Of a stretch of DNA of 61,470 nt, positions 26,091 through 32,995 are shown piece after piece; the stretch's first letter is position 1, and each line of letters starts with the position of its first letter. Below the pieces are notes generated by a model. That model did no database searches and was not told the origin of the DNA. It saw nothing but the letters and a program-made list of their open reading frames with translations. Position numbers and translations under genes: made by a program. Source of the DNA: Thioalkalivibrio sp. ALJ24 (GTDB lineage: Bacteria > Pseudomonadota > Gammaproteobacteria > Ectothiorhodospirales > Ectothiorhodospiraceae); the NCBI RefSeq assembly GCF_000377785.1, contig NZ_KB898734.1, forward strand, positions 1 to 61,470, read 5' to 3'.

Positions 26091-26105
26091 CGTTATACTA
26101 TAACG
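26091..26105. promoter_or_regulatory. Zur box between dksA2 and folE2
   Basis: CGTTATA-C-TATAACG is a perfect 7-1-7 palindrome that contains the gammaproteobacterial Zur core GTTATA-N-TATAAC. It overlaps the -10 regions of both divergent promoters, so one repressor dimer could silence dksA2-cobW-DUF1826 and folE2 together when zinc is sufficient. Confidence 0.85.
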
Positions 26106-27986: not shown

Positions 27987-28763
27987 TCAGGCAGCGCGCC
28001 GCAGGGCCGCGCCCGCCCGCGCCAGCAGCGCGAGCAGCAGTAGCACGACCACCAGTACCGGGGCGAAGGGCTGGTCCAGCGGCAGGCTGATGGTCCAGGC
28101 GACGAGGAAGCCTGCGATCGCCAGGCCCTGGCTCCACAGCAGCGCACCCGTCAGGCCGCGGGCCAGAAACGCCGCCCCCCAGGCCGGCAGCAGCAGGGTG
28201 GCCAGCGCCGCGGGCATGCCCAGCACCATGCTCCCGAGGACGATCACGGCAACCAGCCATGCGGTCTCCAGCCAGCGCGCGATCGCCGGCGGTGCCGGCG
28301 CGGCGGACACGTCCGGGGCCAGCTGGGCGTGCAGCCAGACCCGGCGCAGCCAGGGCCACAAGACCGCGCTGGCCACCGCGGCGACCAACACCGCGATCAG
28401 CTCGTTCGGGCCGGCGAAATACAGCTGCCCCTCCGCCCACGCGGCGGCGGCAAGGCTCGCCTGCGAGAAGTTGGCCGCCAGCAGGGTGACCGCGGCCAGT
28501 CCGCCCAGGAACAGCGCCAGCGGCAGGCGTTCGGCATCGCGGACACGCTGCAGCAGGGCCATCACCCCGGCCCCCAGGGCCAGCGCGACCGGCAGCACCG
28601 GCCAGTGCAGGACCGAGGCCAGCACGCCACCGGCGGCGGCCCACTGGCCCAGCGCCAGCGCCTGCCAGACCGAGCCGCGCAGGAACAGGCCACTGCCGGC
28701 CAGCGCCAGCACCAGCGTGATCAGGAATCCGGCCACGAAAGGCGTCAGCAGCAGATCAGTCAT
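27987..28763 (-). CDS. znuB: Zinc/metal ABC transporter permease (ZnuB-like, ABC-3 family)
   Basis: 258 residues with about eight hydrophobic helices, beginning LLLTPFVAGFLITLVLALAG, in the pattern of ABC-3 metal permeases. The region GQLYFAGPNELIAVLVAAV corresponds to the family's central cytoplasmic loop. It overlaps the ATPase gene by 8 bp and so is translationally coupled. Family membership and operon place it as the inner-membrane channel of the zinc importer. Divergence from E. coli ZnuB is considerable. Confidence 0.85.
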   Translation of the reverse strand: MTDLLLTPFVAGFLITLVLALAGSGLFLRGSVWQALALGQWAAAGGVLASVLHWPVLPVALALGAGVMALLQRVRDAERLPLALFLGGLAAVTLLAANFSQASLAAAAWAEGQLYFAGPNELIAVLVAAVASAVLWPWLRRVWLHAQLAPDVSAAPAPPAIARWLETAWLVAVIVLGSMVLGMPAALATLLLPAWGAAFLARGLTGALLWSQGLAIAGFLVAWTISLPLDQPFAPVLVVVLLLLALLARAGAALRRAA

Positions 28764-29364
28764 GGGCGTCGAGGTAGTCCTGCAGGGGGTGGCGCTCCAC
28801 GCCGAGGGTGCCCAGCAGTTCGTCGTCGTGGCTGGTCATCACCAGAGTGGTACTCGCGGGCAGGGCGGTGATGAGTTCTATCGCATCGGCGCGGACCTCG
28901 GCGTCCAGGTGGTTGGCGGGCTCGTCCAGCAGCACCAGGTGGGGGCGGCCGGTGTCGGCGCCGGTCTCCGCTGGCGCCAGTACGGAGGCCAGGCGCAGGA
29001 GCTGCCACTGGCCGCCGCTGAGGTGGTCCAGACGCCGGCGCAGCAGTGCCCGGATGCGAGGGTGTTCGGGCACGCGCGTACCCATGGCCCGGAACCAGTC
29101 GTGTCCGGACAGGGGCCATGGGTGCGGGCGCGGATGATCCTGAGCCAGCAGGCTGATGCGGGTGCCGGGGGCGGTGGTGAGCCGCCCCCCGTGCACCCGC
29201 GCCTGCCCCGTCAGGCATTTGAGCAGCAGCGACTTCCCGGACCCGTTGGGCCCGGTGATCGCCCAGCGTGCCCCGCCCGGGACCGCCAGACTGAGCGGCC
29301 CGAGGACGGGGCGGTCGAATCCCGGGCGCGCGGCCCGGGCCTCGATGACGGGGGAGTCGGACAT
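28756..29364 (-). CDS. znuC: Zinc/metal ABC transporter ATP-binding protein (ZnuC-like)
   Basis: 202 residues, shorter than the roughly 250 of E. coli ZnuC, but with a complete nucleotide-binding domain: Walker A GPNGSGKS, signature LSGGQWQLLRL, Walker B HLVLLDEPANHLD and switch His in VMTSHDDE. It lacks the C-terminal extension of ZnuC. It begins 9 bp after the binding-protein gene and overlaps the permease, so the three genes form one importer. Assignment to zinc rests on context and the Zur boxes upstream of the operon. Confidence 0.85.
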   Translation of the reverse strand: MSDSPVIEARAARPGFDRPVLGPLSLAVPGGARWAITGPNGSGKSLLLKCLTGQARVHGGRLTTAPGTRISLLAQDHPRPHPWPLSGHDWFRAMGTRVPEHPRIRALLRRRLDHLSGGQWQLLRLASVLAPAETGADTGRPHLVLLDEPANHLDAEVRADAIELITALPASTTLVMTSHDDELLGTLGVERHPLQDYLDAHD

Positions 29365-29373
29365 CCGCGCAGC

Positions 29374-30297
29374 CTAGCGCGTGCGGAAGGTGGATGCCCA
29401 GGTTTCCATCAGCTCGAGGTAGCCATCCAGCCCGGCATCCTGCGGCGGATCCAGCGGGACCGCGTGGCTGTCCCAGCCGAGCTCGCGTTCGAGGAACTCG
29501 GCCCCGCGCGGCGGCTGGAACTCGGCGTACAGCACGTGGCCGTCCATGCCTTCCAGTTCGCCAACCAGGCTTTGCAGGTGACGCCCGGTGGGCGGAATGC
29601 CCGGGGCCGGTTCGAGGTAGCCGACGACATTGGCGGGCAGCCACTCCTCGAGATAGTCGAGATCCTCGTGATAGACCACGATGTTCTGGTCGGGTGCCAG
29701 TTCACTGGCGAGATGCTCGGCATGCTCGCGCAGCCGTTGTGCCGTCTCTTCCGCGCGTTCGCGGTAGACGTCCGCATTGGCCGAATCGAGCTCCGCGAGC
29801 CGTTCGCCCAGGGCCAGGCCGACCTCCGCCATGCGCAGGGGGTCGGTGTTGAAGTGCGGATTGCCCTCTTCATGGACGTGGCCCATGTTGGGCCCGTCCT
29901 GGGTGATGGAACGACGCAGCTCGACCTTGCCGGCGGCATAGAAATGCCCGCGCTGGCCCTCGTTGATGGCCGGGTTGGACGCGCCACGGGTGGCGGCCGG
30001 CAGCCAGCCTTCCTCCAGACCGGCGCCCAGTTCCAGCAGCAGGTCGGCGTTGCGCATCGCGGCCATGAAGCTGGGCCGTGCATCCAGATAATGGGCGTCG
30101 CGATCGGGGGGAGCGAGCACGCGTACGCTCGTCTGCTCGCCGCCGATCTCGCGCGCCAGCGCGCCGAGGCTGGAGGTGGTCGCGACGACGTTCAGTTCAC
30201 TGGCGGCGGCCTGCCCCGGCAGCGTAAGGGCGGCGAGCAGTGCCAGCCCCGAGAGGCCGGCGGTTGCGAAGGTTTTCGGGATCGGTTGTTTCAACAT
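29374..30297 (-). CDS. znuA: Periplasmic zinc-binding protein of the ABC importer (ZnuA-like)
   Basis: 307 residues with a signal peptide (GLSGLALLAALTLPGQAAAS). Cluster A-I metal-binding residues are in DAHYLDARPSF, GNPHFNTDP, VVYHEDLDY and the C-terminal LYAEFQ. There is only a short His-containing loop (GHVHEEGNPH) rather than the long His-rich loop of E. coli ZnuA, so Mn2+ or Fe2+ binding cannot be excluded from the protein alone. It is 24 bp downstream of the His-rich outer-membrane protein and heads the znuA-C-B set. Confidence 0.87.
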   Translation of the reverse strand: MLKQPIPKTFATAGLSGLALLAALTLPGQAAASELNVVATTSSLGALAREIGGEQTSVRVLAPPDRDAHYLDARPSFMAAMRNADLLLELGAGLEEGWLPAATRGASNPAINEGQRGHFYAAGKVELRRSITQDGPNMGHVHEEGNPHFNTDPLRMAEVGLALGERLAELDSANADVYRERAEETAQRLREHAEHLASELAPDQNIVVYHEDLDYLEEWLPANVVGYLEPAPGIPPTGRHLQSLVGELEGMDGHVLYAEFQPPRGAEFLERELGWDSHAVPLDPPQDAGLDGYLELMETWASTFRTR

Positions 30298-30321: not shown

Positions 30322-31644
30322 TCAGAAGCGGTGGGCGCCGTGGGCGCCAAGGGCGACGTTGACCTGGAACAGGAATTCCAGTCCCCGATCACGGTCCCCG
30401 TGGTCGTCGACAAAGTCGTTCTGCGTCAGCTGGGCGCGCAGGAATACCGGCTCCACCGGACGGAAGGTGACCTGGGCCGAATGGCGGTACGAGGTATCGA
30501 AGGACGGGATGGTGGTATCTTGGCCGTCACGCTCGATGCGGCCGTCATTGGTCAGGCCCAGTGCCTCGGTCCGCAGGCCGGCCTCCCAGCGGGGCGCGAA
30601 GCCGTAGACGCCCTGTACGTATAGGCCGTCCTGCTTGGACTTGCCGCTACCCTCGATGCCATGGCGTTCATGGTCGGTATCAAACTGTCGGCGCTGGTAA
30701 TCGAGGTCGACCTCGCGGTAGAAGTACTCGCCCTGTACGCGCCAGTCGCCATGGCCGTAGGCGCGTCCGGAACTGTACTTGTACACCGCGTCCAGGCCGG
30801 CGAACCACGCATCACCATCCCACTCCTCGAGGCCGGAACCATGTTCGGTTTCCTCTTGCCAGGTGTTGGCATAGCCACCGGAGACACCGAACTGGGCCGC
30901 ATGATCCGGACCCAGTTCCGGGCCGAACTTGGCGAACGCGGTGATCAGGCGGGGCCCGGACACATCGGAGAATGAAGAGTGGATTTCGTTGGGCGGATCG
31001 TCATCGTCGGAGTGAGAGCCGCCACCCCCCTCGTACGGGATAAAGCTGTTGTCACCCTGCAGGAGCTCGATACCCAGCTGGGTGTAGGTCGCGGTCGGCG
31101 CGACCCAGGTGGCCTGTACGCCGGTCTCCTGGATGCCATGGTTGCCGAACAGGTATTCGTTCACCAGCGGACGGTCGACGAAGTCCCAGTCGTGGACGTG
31201 GCGGCTGTTGATGTAGCCGATCTCCGACAGGAACTTGCCCGCTTTCAGCTGGAGGCCGGCCGGCAGGGCGCGGGTGGTCAGATAGGCCTCTTCGATCTCG
31301 ATGTCGTCCTCGTCGAAGCCAACCATCAGGGTACCGTCCAGCAGGCCGCCCAGGCTGGCTTCGAACACCAGTTCGTTGTGGCCGAGATTGAAGCCGTCGT
31401 CGAAGGAATGGTCGTGGTCGTGATCATGCCCGTGGCCATGGTCGTGTCCGTCGTCGAACCCGGCGGGTTCGTGGATCCCTTCGCTCATCTCATTGTAGTA
31501 GATCCCTTCCAGGATCAGCGAGATATCCATTCCCCAGTCCGATCCCGAATCGTCCGGGGCCTGGGCGACGGCCAGGGCCGGCGTGGCGCAGGCCAGCACG
31601 GTCAGGCCCGTCAGGGCATTGCGGTGGTGTCGTGGGTGCAGCAT
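30322..31644 (-). CDS. His-rich outer-membrane beta-barrel protein, likely zinc-responsive
   Basis: 440 residues. A signal peptide (LTGLTVLACATPALAVAQA) is followed at about 68-85 by a loop of alternating His and Asp (FDDGHDHGHGHDHDHDHSF). The remainder is rich in alternating hydrophobic/aromatic strands (LQLKAGKFLSEIGYINSRHVHD) and ends in a C-terminal F (GAHGAHRF), the usual outer-membrane barrel terminus. It has no TonB box or plug domain that I can see. It is the first gene of the Zur-box-controlled operon ahead of znuACB, so it may bind or admit zinc at the outer membrane. GGAG lies 7 bases before the ATG. Confidence 0.8.
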   Translation of the reverse strand: MLHPRHHRNALTGLTVLACATPALAVAQAPDDSGSDWGMDISLILEGIYYNEMSEGIHEPAGFDDGHDHGHGHDHDHDHSFDDGFNLGHNELVFEASLGGLLDGTLMVGFDEDDIEIEEAYLTTRALPAGLQLKAGKFLSEIGYINSRHVHDWDFVDRPLVNEYLFGNHGIQETGVQATWVAPTATYTQLGIELLQGDNSFIPYEGGGGSHSDDDDPPNEIHSSFSDVSGPRLITAFAKFGPELGPDHAAQFGVSGGYANTWQEETEHGSGLEEWDGDAWFAGLDAVYKYSSGRAYGHGDWRVQGEYFYREVDLDYQRRQFDTDHERHGIEGSGKSKQDGLYVQGVYGFAPRWEAGLRTEALGLTNDGRIERDGQDTTIPSFDTSYRHSAQVTFRPVEPVFLRAQLTQNDFVDDHGDRDRGLEFLFQVNVALGAHGAHRF

Positions 31645-31695
31645 GAGTCTTCTCCCCTGGATGAGTCTGGCGTGTCCTCACGCACGGCCATACCG

Positions 31696-31712
31696 ACGTT
31701 ATGGAATAACGT
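31696..31712. promoter_or_regulatory. Zur-box-like palindrome, proximal, upstream of the zinc operon
   Basis: ACGTTAT-GGA-ATAACGT is a perfect palindrome matching the Zur core at 10 of 12 positions. It lies about 52 bp before the barrel gene, downstream of the predicted start of transcription. Confidence 0.7.
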
Positions 31713-31725
31713 GAGCGGACAAGAA

Positions 31726-31740
31726 CGATATAATGTAACG
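31726..31740. promoter_or_regulatory. Zur-box-like palindrome, distal, on the promoter
   Basis: CGATATAATGTAACG matches GTTATA-N-TATAAC at 10 of 12 positions. It overlaps a leftward -10-like TATATC (31732-31727) that lies 16 bp after TTGTGT (31754-31749). Its centre is 29 bp from that of the proximal box. Confidence 0.6.
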
Positions 31741-31796
31741 GTATGCGGACACAAGGGACCCCGGGCCGGCACGGGAGAATGCACGCGGGCGACAAG

Positions 31797-31823
31797 AAAA
31801 AGCCGCCCGGGACAACGGGCGGC
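31797..31823 (-). terminator. Rho-independent terminator (leftward)
   Basis: On the leftward strand GCCGCCCG-TTGTCC-CGGGCGGC forms an 8-bp perfect GC stem with a 6-nt loop, followed directly by TTTTTCTT. It would end the candidate sRNA and also read-through from zur and the DNA glycosylase, insulating the zinc operon. Confidence 0.9.
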
Positions 31824-31909
31824 GAAACGCAGCGGAGGTGGAGGGACGGGGAAGCGAACAGGTCCCGTCCCGGCGACACGCCAGTGTCCGACAACAATCG
31901 CGTATCTGA
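31797..31909 (-). ncRNA. Candidate small regulatory RNA (iron-responsive, PrrF/RyhB-like in layout)
   Basis: No open reading frame of note covers this stretch. A consensus promoter (31943-31916) would start a leftward transcript near 31909, and a Rho-independent terminator ends it at about 31797, giving roughly 113 nt. Three stem-loops are visible: GACAC/GTGTC (31875-31888), GGGACGGG/CCCGTCCC (31843-31871) and the terminator (31802-31823). The single-stranded segment between the second and third (31824-31842) reads leftward as a CU-rich sequence containing CCTCCGC, complementary to Shine-Dalgarno sequences. The start overlaps a Fur-box-like palindrome. Size, terminator and Fur control resemble PrrF and RyhB. 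There is no primary-sequence claim of homology. Confidence 0.6.
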
Positions 31910-31927
31910 ATGCGAATTATACGCATC
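31909..31927. promoter_or_regulatory. Fur-box-like palindrome over the sRNA promoter
   Basis: AATGCGAATTATACGCATC agrees with the commonly used Fur-box sequence AATGAGAATTATTCTCATT at 15 of 19 positions. It covers the -10 element and predicted start. Wider arms ATCTGAA (31904-31910) and TTCAGAT (31932-31938) form an outer perfect inverted repeat. Confidence 0.55.
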
Positions 31928-31943
31928 TGCGTTCAGATGTCAA
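31916..31943 (-). promoter_or_regulatory. Consensus sigma70 promoter (leftward)
   Basis: TTGACA (31943-31938), a 16-bp spacer and TATAAT (31921-31916) match the sigma70 consensus at all 12 positions, which is rare in such GC-rich DNA. No coding sequence lies between it and the terminator at 31797-31823. Confidence 0.8.
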
Positions 31944-31968
31944 CGAGTCAACGGGGGTGGGAGGTGTG

Positions 31969-32493
31969 TCAGGGCGCCGGGGCGCCCAGTCCGGCCAGGC
32001 GGAAGGCTTCTGCCCAGCGTTCGAGCTTGGCCTCGAGATCGAGGCGGGCATTGGCCGGGCTGGTGGAGGGCAGGCGCACCGCGGTCACGCCCAGCGCCCG
32101 GGTCTCGCGGATGCGGCGGGCACTTTCCGCGCCGTTGTGCACGATCAGGCGCAAGTCGGGGGCTTCGCGCGTCAGCCGGCCGAGGTCGTTGGGCTGCGGG
32201 TTGCGGATGGCGCTGTCGAGACTGCCTTCGCGTGCGCAGGCGCCGTAGATGTCCCACAGCCCGACCCCGCAGTCGAGCAGGCGGGCGTAGCGCTCGGGCC
32301 AGGGCAGCTCCGGGAACGGCGGGCCGAGGATGCGCGCCATGATCGGCCAGAACTGGTTGCGCGGATGGGCGTAATAGGCGGCCGCCTCCAGCGAGGCGAC
32401 CCCGGGGAAGCTGCCCAGCACCACGGCCCGGGTATCCGCGCGCAGCACGGGCTCGAACGCCCGCAACACCGGACTGGAAAGCGGCACGGTCAT
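31969..32493 (-). CDS. Uracil/hypoxanthine-DNA glycosylase superfamily protein
   Basis: 174 residues with the UDG-superfamily fold of the Mug/HDG branch. Motif 1 region reads VLGSFPGVASLEAAAYYAHPRNQFWP, shown here only as the segments LGSFPGVASL and YYAHPRNQFW, and the late motif is LPSTSPANA. These resemble family 6 hypoxanthine-DNA glycosylases that remove deaminated adenine, but exact specificity is uncertain. It lies 25 bp downstream of zur on the same strand and is probably co-transcribed with it. I know no reason why a DNA repair enzyme should share a transcript with zur. Confidence 0.82.
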   Translation of the reverse strand: MTVPLSSPVLRAFEPVLRADTRAVVLGSFPGVASLEAAAYYAHPRNQFWPIMARILGPPFPELPWPERYARLLDCGVGLWDIYGACAREGSLDSAIRNPQPNDLGRLTREAPDLRLIVHNGAESARRIRETRALGVTAVRLPSTSPANARLDLEAKLERWAEAFRLAGLGAPAP

Positions 32494-32518: not shown

Positions 32519-32995
32519 TCAGGTCGGCTGGCAGTCGCGGCACAGGCCGTGGAGTTCCACGGTTCGGGTCTCGATGGCGAAGCCCGTCTCGGCCGCGGCG
32601 GCGTCCAGGGCGTGGCTGGCGGTGTCCGGGGTGTGGAACTCGATGATCCGGCCGCAGCCGTCGCAGATCATCAGTGCGGATTCGTGGCGTTCCCCGGGGT
32701 GGCTGCAGGCGACGAAGCCGTTGAGGCTCTCGATGCGGTGGATCAGCCCCTGTTCCAGCAGGAAGGCGAGCGTGCGGTAGACCGTCGGCGGCTTGATGCT
32801 GCGGTCCTCGGATGACAGGGCGTGGATCAGGTCGTAGGCCTTGATCACGCCGTCGGTGCGCAGGATCTGTTCCAGGATGCGCCGACGCTGCTCGGTCAGG
32901 CGCGCGCCACGGCGGGTGCAGACGCGTTCGGCGTCGTCCAGGGCCTGCCGGATCGCGGTGTCGTCGGGGACGGGTGCCTGAGAAGCCGTACTCAT
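32519..32995 (-). CDS. zur: Zinc uptake regulator Zur (Fur family)
   Basis: 158 residues. The winged helix (RLTEQRRRILEQIL, PPTVYRTLAFLLEQGLIHRI) is followed by the Zur-typical ESLNGFVACSHPGERHES stretch. The structural zinc site is C-x2-C in ICDGCGR plus a terminal CRDC. Zur binds boxes such as those at 26091-26105 and 31696-31740 when zinc-loaded and represses zinc-acquisition and zinc-sparing genes. I see no Zur box before its own start (32996-33059). Distinguishing Zur from Fur rests on the ESLNGFVAC motif and the surrounding zinc genes. Confidence 0.9.
   Translation of the reverse strand: MSTASQAPVPDDTAIRQALDDAERVCTRRGARLTEQRRRILEQILRTDGVIKAYDLIHALSSEDRSIKPPTVYRTLAFLLEQGLIHRIESLNGFVACSHPGERHESALMICDGCGRIIEFHTPDTASHALDAAAAETGFAIETRTVELHGLCRDCQPT

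Follow-up and report, generated by a model that had tools for sequence, protein, structure and literature searches.

Introduction

PrrF1 and PrrF2 of Pseudomonas and RyhB of the enterobacteria are small RNAs (sRNAs) encoded by stand-alone genes, with a Fur-type site at the promoter and an intrinsic terminator at the end. BrrF of Burkholderia is a narrowly distributed low-iron sRNA with two conserved 5′ hairpins and a constant neighborhood; it reportedly has no Fur box directly upstream and is probably made with hemP (PMC7377471). RusT of Caulobacter is induced by iron chelation and by excess zinc, and is controlled by NtrYX (PMC11005374). RsmW of Pseudomonas is a 3′-UTR RNA with seven GGA motifs, for which independent promoter activity was reportedly not found (PMC4950607). 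Finally, a survey of noncoding RNAs in 50 Thioalkalivibrio genomes described the motifs mgtE, aceE-II, ykoW, and smtA (“Soda Lake RNA”), together with ten sRNA candidates and many other motifs (PMC11109978).

This study focuses on a candidate sRNA gene in the zinc island of Thioalkalivibrio sp. ALJ24. The window, i.e., the whole stretch of DNA that was analyzed, comprises 61,470 nt of contig NZ_KB898734.1, and its genome, like the copy that it carries, is designated G000. A sequence-only reading of this DNA had proposed an independent sRNA gene of the PrrF and RyhB layout and a search of related genomes for its promoter and terminator. The features of the locus are collected in Table 1.

The sRNA Gene and its Signals

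On the minus strand, TTGACA-N16-TATAAT (31943..31916) matches the sigma-70 promoter at 12 of 12 positions and is the sole promoter-like site between 30500 and 33500, where shuffled sequences give a mean of 0.3. Judging from the −10 hexamer, a transcript would start at about 31909 and end in the U-run at about 31797, for a length of about 110 nt. The terminator scan returned two sites, both of them registers of one hairpin (31823-31802; shuffle mean 1.0) whose stem consists of 8 G-C pairs. Folding predicts three stem-loops (two hairpins and the terminator) and leaves the CU-rich stretch unpaired (z = -2.6; 4 of 200 shuffles fold equally well); the C at 31843, directly before this element, closes hairpin 2. 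The promoter, the three stem-loops, the CU-rich stretch containing CCTCC and the textbook terminator had all been described in the sequence-only reading, and each was recovered here. The longest closed reading frame within the RNA ranges from 0 to 29 codons across copies. Rfam gave no match for the window at the gathering score and none for 31650-32000 up to E = 5; at the same settings, the family models of RyhB and PrrF were unmatched by the window RNA. Further inverted repeats within the promoter region 31900-31943 (CATCTGAACGCAGATG; ATCTGAACGC ... GCATTCAGAT) are not kept in G007.

Table 1. Coordinates of the sRNA gene and of the neighboring features in the window
Feature	Position	Strand	Remarks
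−35 hexamer TTGACA	31938..31943	-	Exact TTGACA in 12 of 14 copies; exceptions TTGACG (G026) and TTGCAA (second copy of G024)
−10 hexamer TATAAT	31916..31921	-	TATAAT, TATGAT, TATCAT or TATGGT in the 14 copies
Predicted Fur-type operator over the −10, AATGCGAATTATACGCATC, 7-1-7 core TGCGAAT-T-ATACGCA	31909..31927	.	Top matrix score in the window
sRNA body	31797..31910	-	Models R1 and R2 align from 31910
Hairpin 1	31875..31906	-	Arms 31906-31900 with 31881-31875
Hairpin 2	31843..31871	-	Arms 31871-31864 with 31850-31843; 3 of 10 model pairs with double changes
CU-rich element TCCACCTCCG, unpaired in folds, anti-Shine-Dalgarno-like, proposed pairing region	31833..31842	-	Constant in 14 of 14 copies except for one variable place
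Intrinsic terminator	31797..31823	-	Stem 31823-31816 with 31809-31802, then TTTTTCTTGT; 3 of 10 model pairs with double changes
zur (Fur-family regulator)	32519..32995	-	Pfam FUR 1.2e-16; called Zur from context and neighboring Zur boxes
mug, uracil-DNA-glycosylase-superfamily gene	31969..32493	-	Pfam UDG 2e-6
omp, outer-membrane-type protein, downstream of the sRNA	30322..31644	-	Sub-cut-off Pfam BBP2 match, 18.7 vs. 26.2 bits; putative product
znuA (29374-30297), znuC (28756-29364), znuB (27987-28763)	27987..30297	-	Pfam ZnuA 1.6e-39, ABC_tran 7.7e-15; znuB named by position
Zur box of the omp promoter	31695..31713	.	10 of 10 specified positions of GTTATNNNATAAC; apart from the sRNA
Second, weaker Zur-like box upstream of omp	31724..31742	.	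8 of 10

Distribution within the Genus

A DNA search of 96 genomes returned one strong match, in G007 (85% over 145 nt), besides many short weak ones. T. halophilus HL17 carries the same sequence as the G007 match; among 11 named loci searched, HL17 matched in full and the matches of ALJ3 and ALJ21 broke off at the end of the locus. A covariance model built from the window and G007 sequences (R1), which spans the RNA and excludes the promoter, found nine further copies with per-genome E-values between 9.2e-10 and 1.6e-6, and two more at 2.4e-5 and 8.0e-4. A twelfth further copy, in G004, was missed by the R1 genome search and found in the zinc island of that genome. The promoter, which lies outside the model, precedes 12 of the 13 further R1 matches. 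A candidate in G038, which scored 29.6 bits with R1, above two accepted copies, was dropped, as it has neither the promoter nor the CU-rich element and is not found by the second model; weak R1 matches at 15 places in 14 genomes (E 0.0068 to 0.84) were left out of the copy count.

The second model (R2) was built from 12 copies, with G000 and G007 left out, and recovers both: G007 at 51.7 bits and G000 at 38.4 bits, the latter not far above the best unrelated match among 369 genomes (33.2 bits). The total stands at 14 copies in 12 of 30 genus genomes, namely G000, G007, G026, G005, G024 (two), G001 (two), G025, G029, G021, G022, G004, and G018; among the 18 genus genomes without a copy, six are only 58-80% complete. 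The search of relatives proposed in the sequence-only reading has found the promoter and terminator kept across these 12 genomes, which supports an independent sRNA gene.

Outside the genus, R2 gave one weak match in 17 other genomes of the family (G043, 23.7 bits), rejected as an ordinary-looking terminator, with at most 77 candidates scored per genome in the genus and family. Among 369 genomes of the class, with at most nine candidates scored per genome, five weak matches (G063, G071, G203, G216, and G280; 27.2-33.2 bits) were found outside the genus, none with promoter and CU-rich element. The locus of G071, which belongs to another family of the class (L229:1501-1661, a weak match at 33.7 bits), shares GGTTAGCATTG before the terminator and lacks both a matching promoter and the CU-rich element. 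No match came from plasmids, phages or viral contigs, including in one exact-pattern search.

Conservation of the Structure

In the 14-copy alignment, which is fitted to the model, 97.1% of cells are paired, and sliding the partners by 1-3 columns brings pairing down to 35-48%. Compensatory double changes occur in 10 of 30 base pairs, against a shuffle mean of 2.6, and none of 500 shuffles reaches as many. Counting further pair types is a less clear measure (22 vs. 18.8; 18 of 500 shuffles reach it). A MAFFT alignment of the 12 copies other than G000 and G007 has double changes in 6 of 30 pairs. All 14 copies share GUCGCC at the end of hairpin 1. Among the unpaired stretches, CUCCA-(A, U or gap)-CCUCCG is the most constant, occurring in 14 of 14. 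By this comparative evidence, the RNA is a structured and conserved family of its own.

The Operator over the −10 Hexamer

On the sRNA strand, the −10 hexamer lies within a 7-1-7 inverted repeat, which reads TGCGTAT-A-ATTCGCA in the window and TGCGTAT-G-ATTCTCA in most relatives. The Fur consensus is GATAATGATAATCATTATC. The sequence-only reading had claimed a Fur box matching at 15 of 19 bases; this figure did not hold, as the best ungapped match is 11/19 (12/19 for a shifted form), and among 3000 random promoters in which TATAAT was fixed and base composition uniform, 875 reach at least 11/19, i.e., chance level. Scanned with up to three mismatches, the consensus gave 21 matches in 14 of 30 genomes, one of them the G018 sRNA promoter, and few of the 13 loci inspected have a recognizable iron gene.

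The degenerate pattern TGMKWATNATWMKCA, in which the Fur core is contained, was found 11 times in the 30 genus genomes, each time at a promoter of this RNA, and its reversed form not once; the forward pattern does not fit three of the 14 copies (G007, G022, and one of G001). Since TGMKWATNATWMKCA was drawn from the sRNA promoters, these 11 matches show specificity and not identity. A looser pattern occurs at 16 places, five of them sRNA promoters and 11 others, against one for the reversed control (G015). Six of these others lie 15-41 nt before a gene of the PA4570 family in G004, G026, and G012, before a TonB-hemin receptor in G026, and at two places in G010, one between HMA-type genes and one about 835 nt before a DUF4198 gene, from which it is separated by a reading frame; five of the 11 have no recognized gene (G015, G002, G008, G016, and contig 16 of G026). 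The PA4570-like gene of G024 is preceded by such an operator too. The PA4570-family assignment rests on NF050178 (4e-15), with 55.8 and 25.1 bits, below the curated cut-off of 100 bits, and in G026 and G024 on tblastn; the G026 receptor matches TIGR01785 above the cut-off (2.6e-135).

A position matrix was built from eight non-sRNA sites in seven promoters (those of the PA4570-like, haem-receptor, and G010 genes, the receptor giving two overlapping registers), sites that had been found with a pattern drawn up knowing the sRNA sites. This matrix ranks the sRNA promoter first among 61,452 window positions, at 23.7 bits against 7.8 for the next separate place, a result that supports a Fur-type site; scoring by matrix had been suggested in the sequence-only reading. 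All 14 sRNA promoters score 15.6-23.7 bits. The window copy also stays first with the four PA4570-like sites (23.0 vs. 11.2), without the G010 sites (24.7 vs. 8.9), without the receptor sites (21.8 vs. 8.6), and with the two G010 sites alone (17.4 vs. 9.7).

In G026, the haem-type receptor gene beside the sRNA (L104:987-3125) is preceded by a promoter of its own, in which a perfect 8-bp inverted repeat, ATGCGAAT-N7-ATTCGCAT, belongs to the operator type described above. In G004, G026, and G024, the zinc island carries at its DUF1826 end a small PA4570-family gene under a Fur-type operator (L187:1253-1486, L190:1253-1486, and L106:2079-2312).

The genome of the window encodes a Fur ortholog (171.9 bits, cut-off 146) and, in all, three FUR-family proteins. 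The third of these (L064:1414-1863) lies beside reading frames that we take to resemble thiS and thiG. It is likely, as far as motif comparison can tell, that the operator is Fur's own, the third FUR-family protein being the main alternative. The same sRNA gene could answer to that protein or to another factor, and to a signal other than iron. Such a reading would account for an operator unlike the textbook Fur sequence, for the confinement of the degenerate 7-1-7 pattern within the genus to this RNA, and for the TonB-receptor promoters, most of which have no such site: among 49 matches listed, 30 receptor loci were scanned, and 27 of the 30 have no Fur-core match of at least 10/14, the others being the G026 receptor, L180 (11), and L156 (10, inside a reading frame). 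Against it stand the sites of the same type before PA4570-family genes and the haem-type receptor, along with reports that PA4570 of P. aeruginosa is induced by iron starvation and has a canonical Fur site (PMC13277308; PMC8534726). Control by a regulator other than Fur is regarded as unlikely.

A Zur matrix of 28 boxes from 14 omp promoters scores the 14 sRNA promoters at -7.9 to 0.8, against 16.7-30.1 for its 28 training sites, and Zur control of the sRNA was rejected as far as its box can tell; three sRNA promoters score above the 99% point of window 60-mers (-2.0).

The CU-rich Element and a Related 3′ End

The element CUCCA(A)CCUCCG is complementary to Shine-Dalgarno sequences. Its 14-base complement, with at most one mismatch, occurs at 17 places in 11 of 12 genomes, and 13 of these are the sRNA genes themselves; since the long complement is found nearly only there, pairing would have to use shorter seeds. 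Duplex energies at the starts of zinc-island genes are not clearly above background, which is small (4 to 158 sites per genome). The 5% point is passed only by the znuB start of G005 (-22.2 vs. -21.5) and by zur and omp of G007 (-25.1 and -22.1 vs. -21.6, with 4 background sites).

R2 also gave weak matches of 24.6-30.7 bits in six genus genomes (G011, G004, G020, G024, G021, and G001). They were rejected both as sRNA copies and as plain terminators, as each directly follows the stop codon of the same gene and all contain UCUCUCC. The gene in question has a sub-cut-off Pfam match to sulfur oxygenase reductase (SOR; 15.3 vs. 25 bits). In the six 3′ ends, UCUCUCC(AA) stands in a short inverted repeat of the GUCG...CGAC type, followed by CCAUUGCCGG and a terminator. 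The corresponding loci (L239, L234-L238, and L209:94-179) share CCAUUGCC and the terminator with the 3′ part of the sRNA. It is possible that the 3′ end of the SOR-like gene gives rise to a 3′-UTR RNA with the same element, and the shared UCUCUCC and terminator-side sequence suggests either that both have one functional element in common or that their 3′ parts descend from one ancestor. That UCUCUCC recurs ahead of a similar terminator in a second gene's 3′ end suggests a function for the element. The TonB-receptor result and this 3′-UTR finding pull in opposite directions.

Capture of CsrA/RsmA in the manner of RsmW would assign the RNA a different mode of action. It finds some support in the GGA between the arms of hairpin 1, present in all 14 copies, and in one G024 copy that stands just before a PA4570-family gene, considering that RsmW derives from the PA4570 3′ UTR (PMC4950607). 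However, the RNAs carry only 1 to 3 GGA before the terminator, with one position common to all 14, whereas three of the seven motifs of RsmW are described on outer loops (PMC4950607). The most constant unpaired element holds no GGA, and the RNA has its own promoter and terminator rather than being a 3′ UTR, which together make CsrA capture quite improbable.

Genomic Setting

The copies of G000 and G007 lie between mug and omp. Eight copies are bounded on one side by the znu operon, at its znuB or methyltransferase (MT) end, and on the other by the 3′ end of convergent folE2; in the znu-folE2 copy of G024, metE and a MetR-like gene stand between the operon end and the sRNA, whose −35 TTGACA shares bases with the stop codon of metE. 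The second copy of G024 lies between DUF1826 and the PA4570-family gene, and the G026 copy behind metE and before the haem-type TonB receptor. The second copy of G001 and the copy of G022 lie behind metE, beside a transposase-type gene and away from the zinc island, as if metE and sRNA had moved as one unit. In all, the zinc island holds 12 of 14 copies in 11 of 12 genomes. The sequence-only reading had placed the gene between zur and the zinc importer: the association with the zinc island stands, whereas that particular order exists only in G000 and G007. Four stretches of zur-mug-omp-znu have no copy (G011, G002, G020, and G022, the last with its copy elsewhere). For MetE, the identity comes from a scan in G024 (NF003556, far above the cut-off), and for the transposase from one in G022 (Pfam rve); the others were recognized by eye from similar sequence. 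In four genomes, metE is directly followed by an sRNA copy (L106:6128-8598, L104:3174-5857, L107:2723-5411, and L112:3102-5790). In the window, the folE2 reading frame as listed contains a clear Zur box, GTTATACTATAAC (26092-26104); the true start is probably downstream of the listed one, with the protein-family match beginning at residue 48.

Because the place changes while the promoter is kept, an omp leader and a mug 3′ end are excluded as general explanations. A leader, riboswitch or attenuator of the downstream omp and znu operon would fit the window, where the RNA lies between the promoter (31943) and omp (31644) and ends in a terminator. The 12 copies outside G000 and G007 stand instead behind MT, znuB, metE or DUF1826, 8 of them facing the folE2 3′ end, and omp is served by Zur boxes of its own, about 60-110 nt past the terminator stem, which leaves the leader with very little probability. 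Least probable of all is that the RNA is processed from the 3′ end of the zur-mug mRNA upstream: the RNA does lie just downstream of mug on the same strand, and a related 3′ part does end another gene in six genomes, but the upstream gene varies (mug, MT, znuB, metE, DUF1826) with a promoter directly before the RNA in 14 of 14 copies, so that the objection foreseen in the sequence-only reading, a transcript consisting of nothing but the 3′ end of the zur-glycosylase mRNA, fails for the family.

Proposed Mode of Action

The reading that we favor, and consider probable from comparative sequence evidence, is a stand-alone sRNA of about 110 nt, forming a new family so far found only in part of Thioalkalivibrio, controlled by Fur and acting by pairing with Shine-Dalgarno sequences. 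Under this reading, Fur with iron would block the sRNA promoter, and the RNA would be made when iron falls. The CU-rich element would then base-pair around the Shine-Dalgarno sequence of selected mRNAs, Hfq perhaps assisting, and lower their translation, as RyhB and PrrF do. Combined with the layout of Fur-repressed trans-acting sRNAs, the anti-Shine-Dalgarno element points to repression of translation when iron is short as the most likely mode.

Lying among genes of zinc starvation (znu, folE2, a cobW-type GTPase) or behind metE, the gene invites the guess that some targets belong to zinc or metal-enzyme use; a link between iron and zinc is suggested by place alone. In a bolder version, which we put forward tentatively and judge rather unlikely, a Fur-controlled sRNA built into a Zur-controlled island of soda-lake sulfur bacteria would retune, by pairing with Shine-Dalgarno sequences, the translation of zinc-import, folE2 or metE-linked mRNAs together with the 3′-UTR UCUCUCC RNA, coupling iron shortage to zinc economy.

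If the favored reading is true, an sRNA family with strong comparative support is added to the haloalkaliphilic sulfur oxidizers, an iron-type control element lies inside the zinc regulon in 11 of 12 genomes, and RNA-based cross-talk between iron and zinc becomes directly testable.

Comparison with Known Systems

Among the best-ranked results of the literature search, no report of this RNA was found, nor any iron-responsive sRNA for haloalkaliphilic sulfur oxidizers. The motifs of the Thioalkalivibrio survey resemble the window RNA in being structured and, as far as reported, restricted to this genus. The main text of that survey mentions none of zur, znu, zinc, and metE; the window RNA may be among the ten sRNA candidates and many other motifs that it counts (PMC11109978).

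RsmW shares with the window RNA a link to a PA4570-family gene, as for one copy (G024) (PMC4950607). RusT resembles it as an iron-starvation sRNA with a zinc connection, and differs by its NtrYX control (PMC11005374). The likeness to BrrF lies in the narrow distribution, the two hairpins and the constant neighborhood, whereas the window RNA is preceded by an operator of its own and has zinc genes around it (PMC7377471). RusT and BrrF are both likened here by description and not by sequence.

Closest in layout are PrrF and RyhB, to which the sequence-only reading had compared the gene. That comparison stands for architecture: each is a stand-alone sRNA of similar length with an intrinsic terminator and a promoter bearing a Fur-type site, a predicted one in the window RNA. 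It does not extend to kinship of sequence: in the searches made, the window RNA has no Rfam match, carries a constant CUCCA(A)CCUCCG, lies in a zinc island and is confined to part of one genus. By sequence, the RNA forms a new family; by mechanism, it would be a further Fur-type sRNA.
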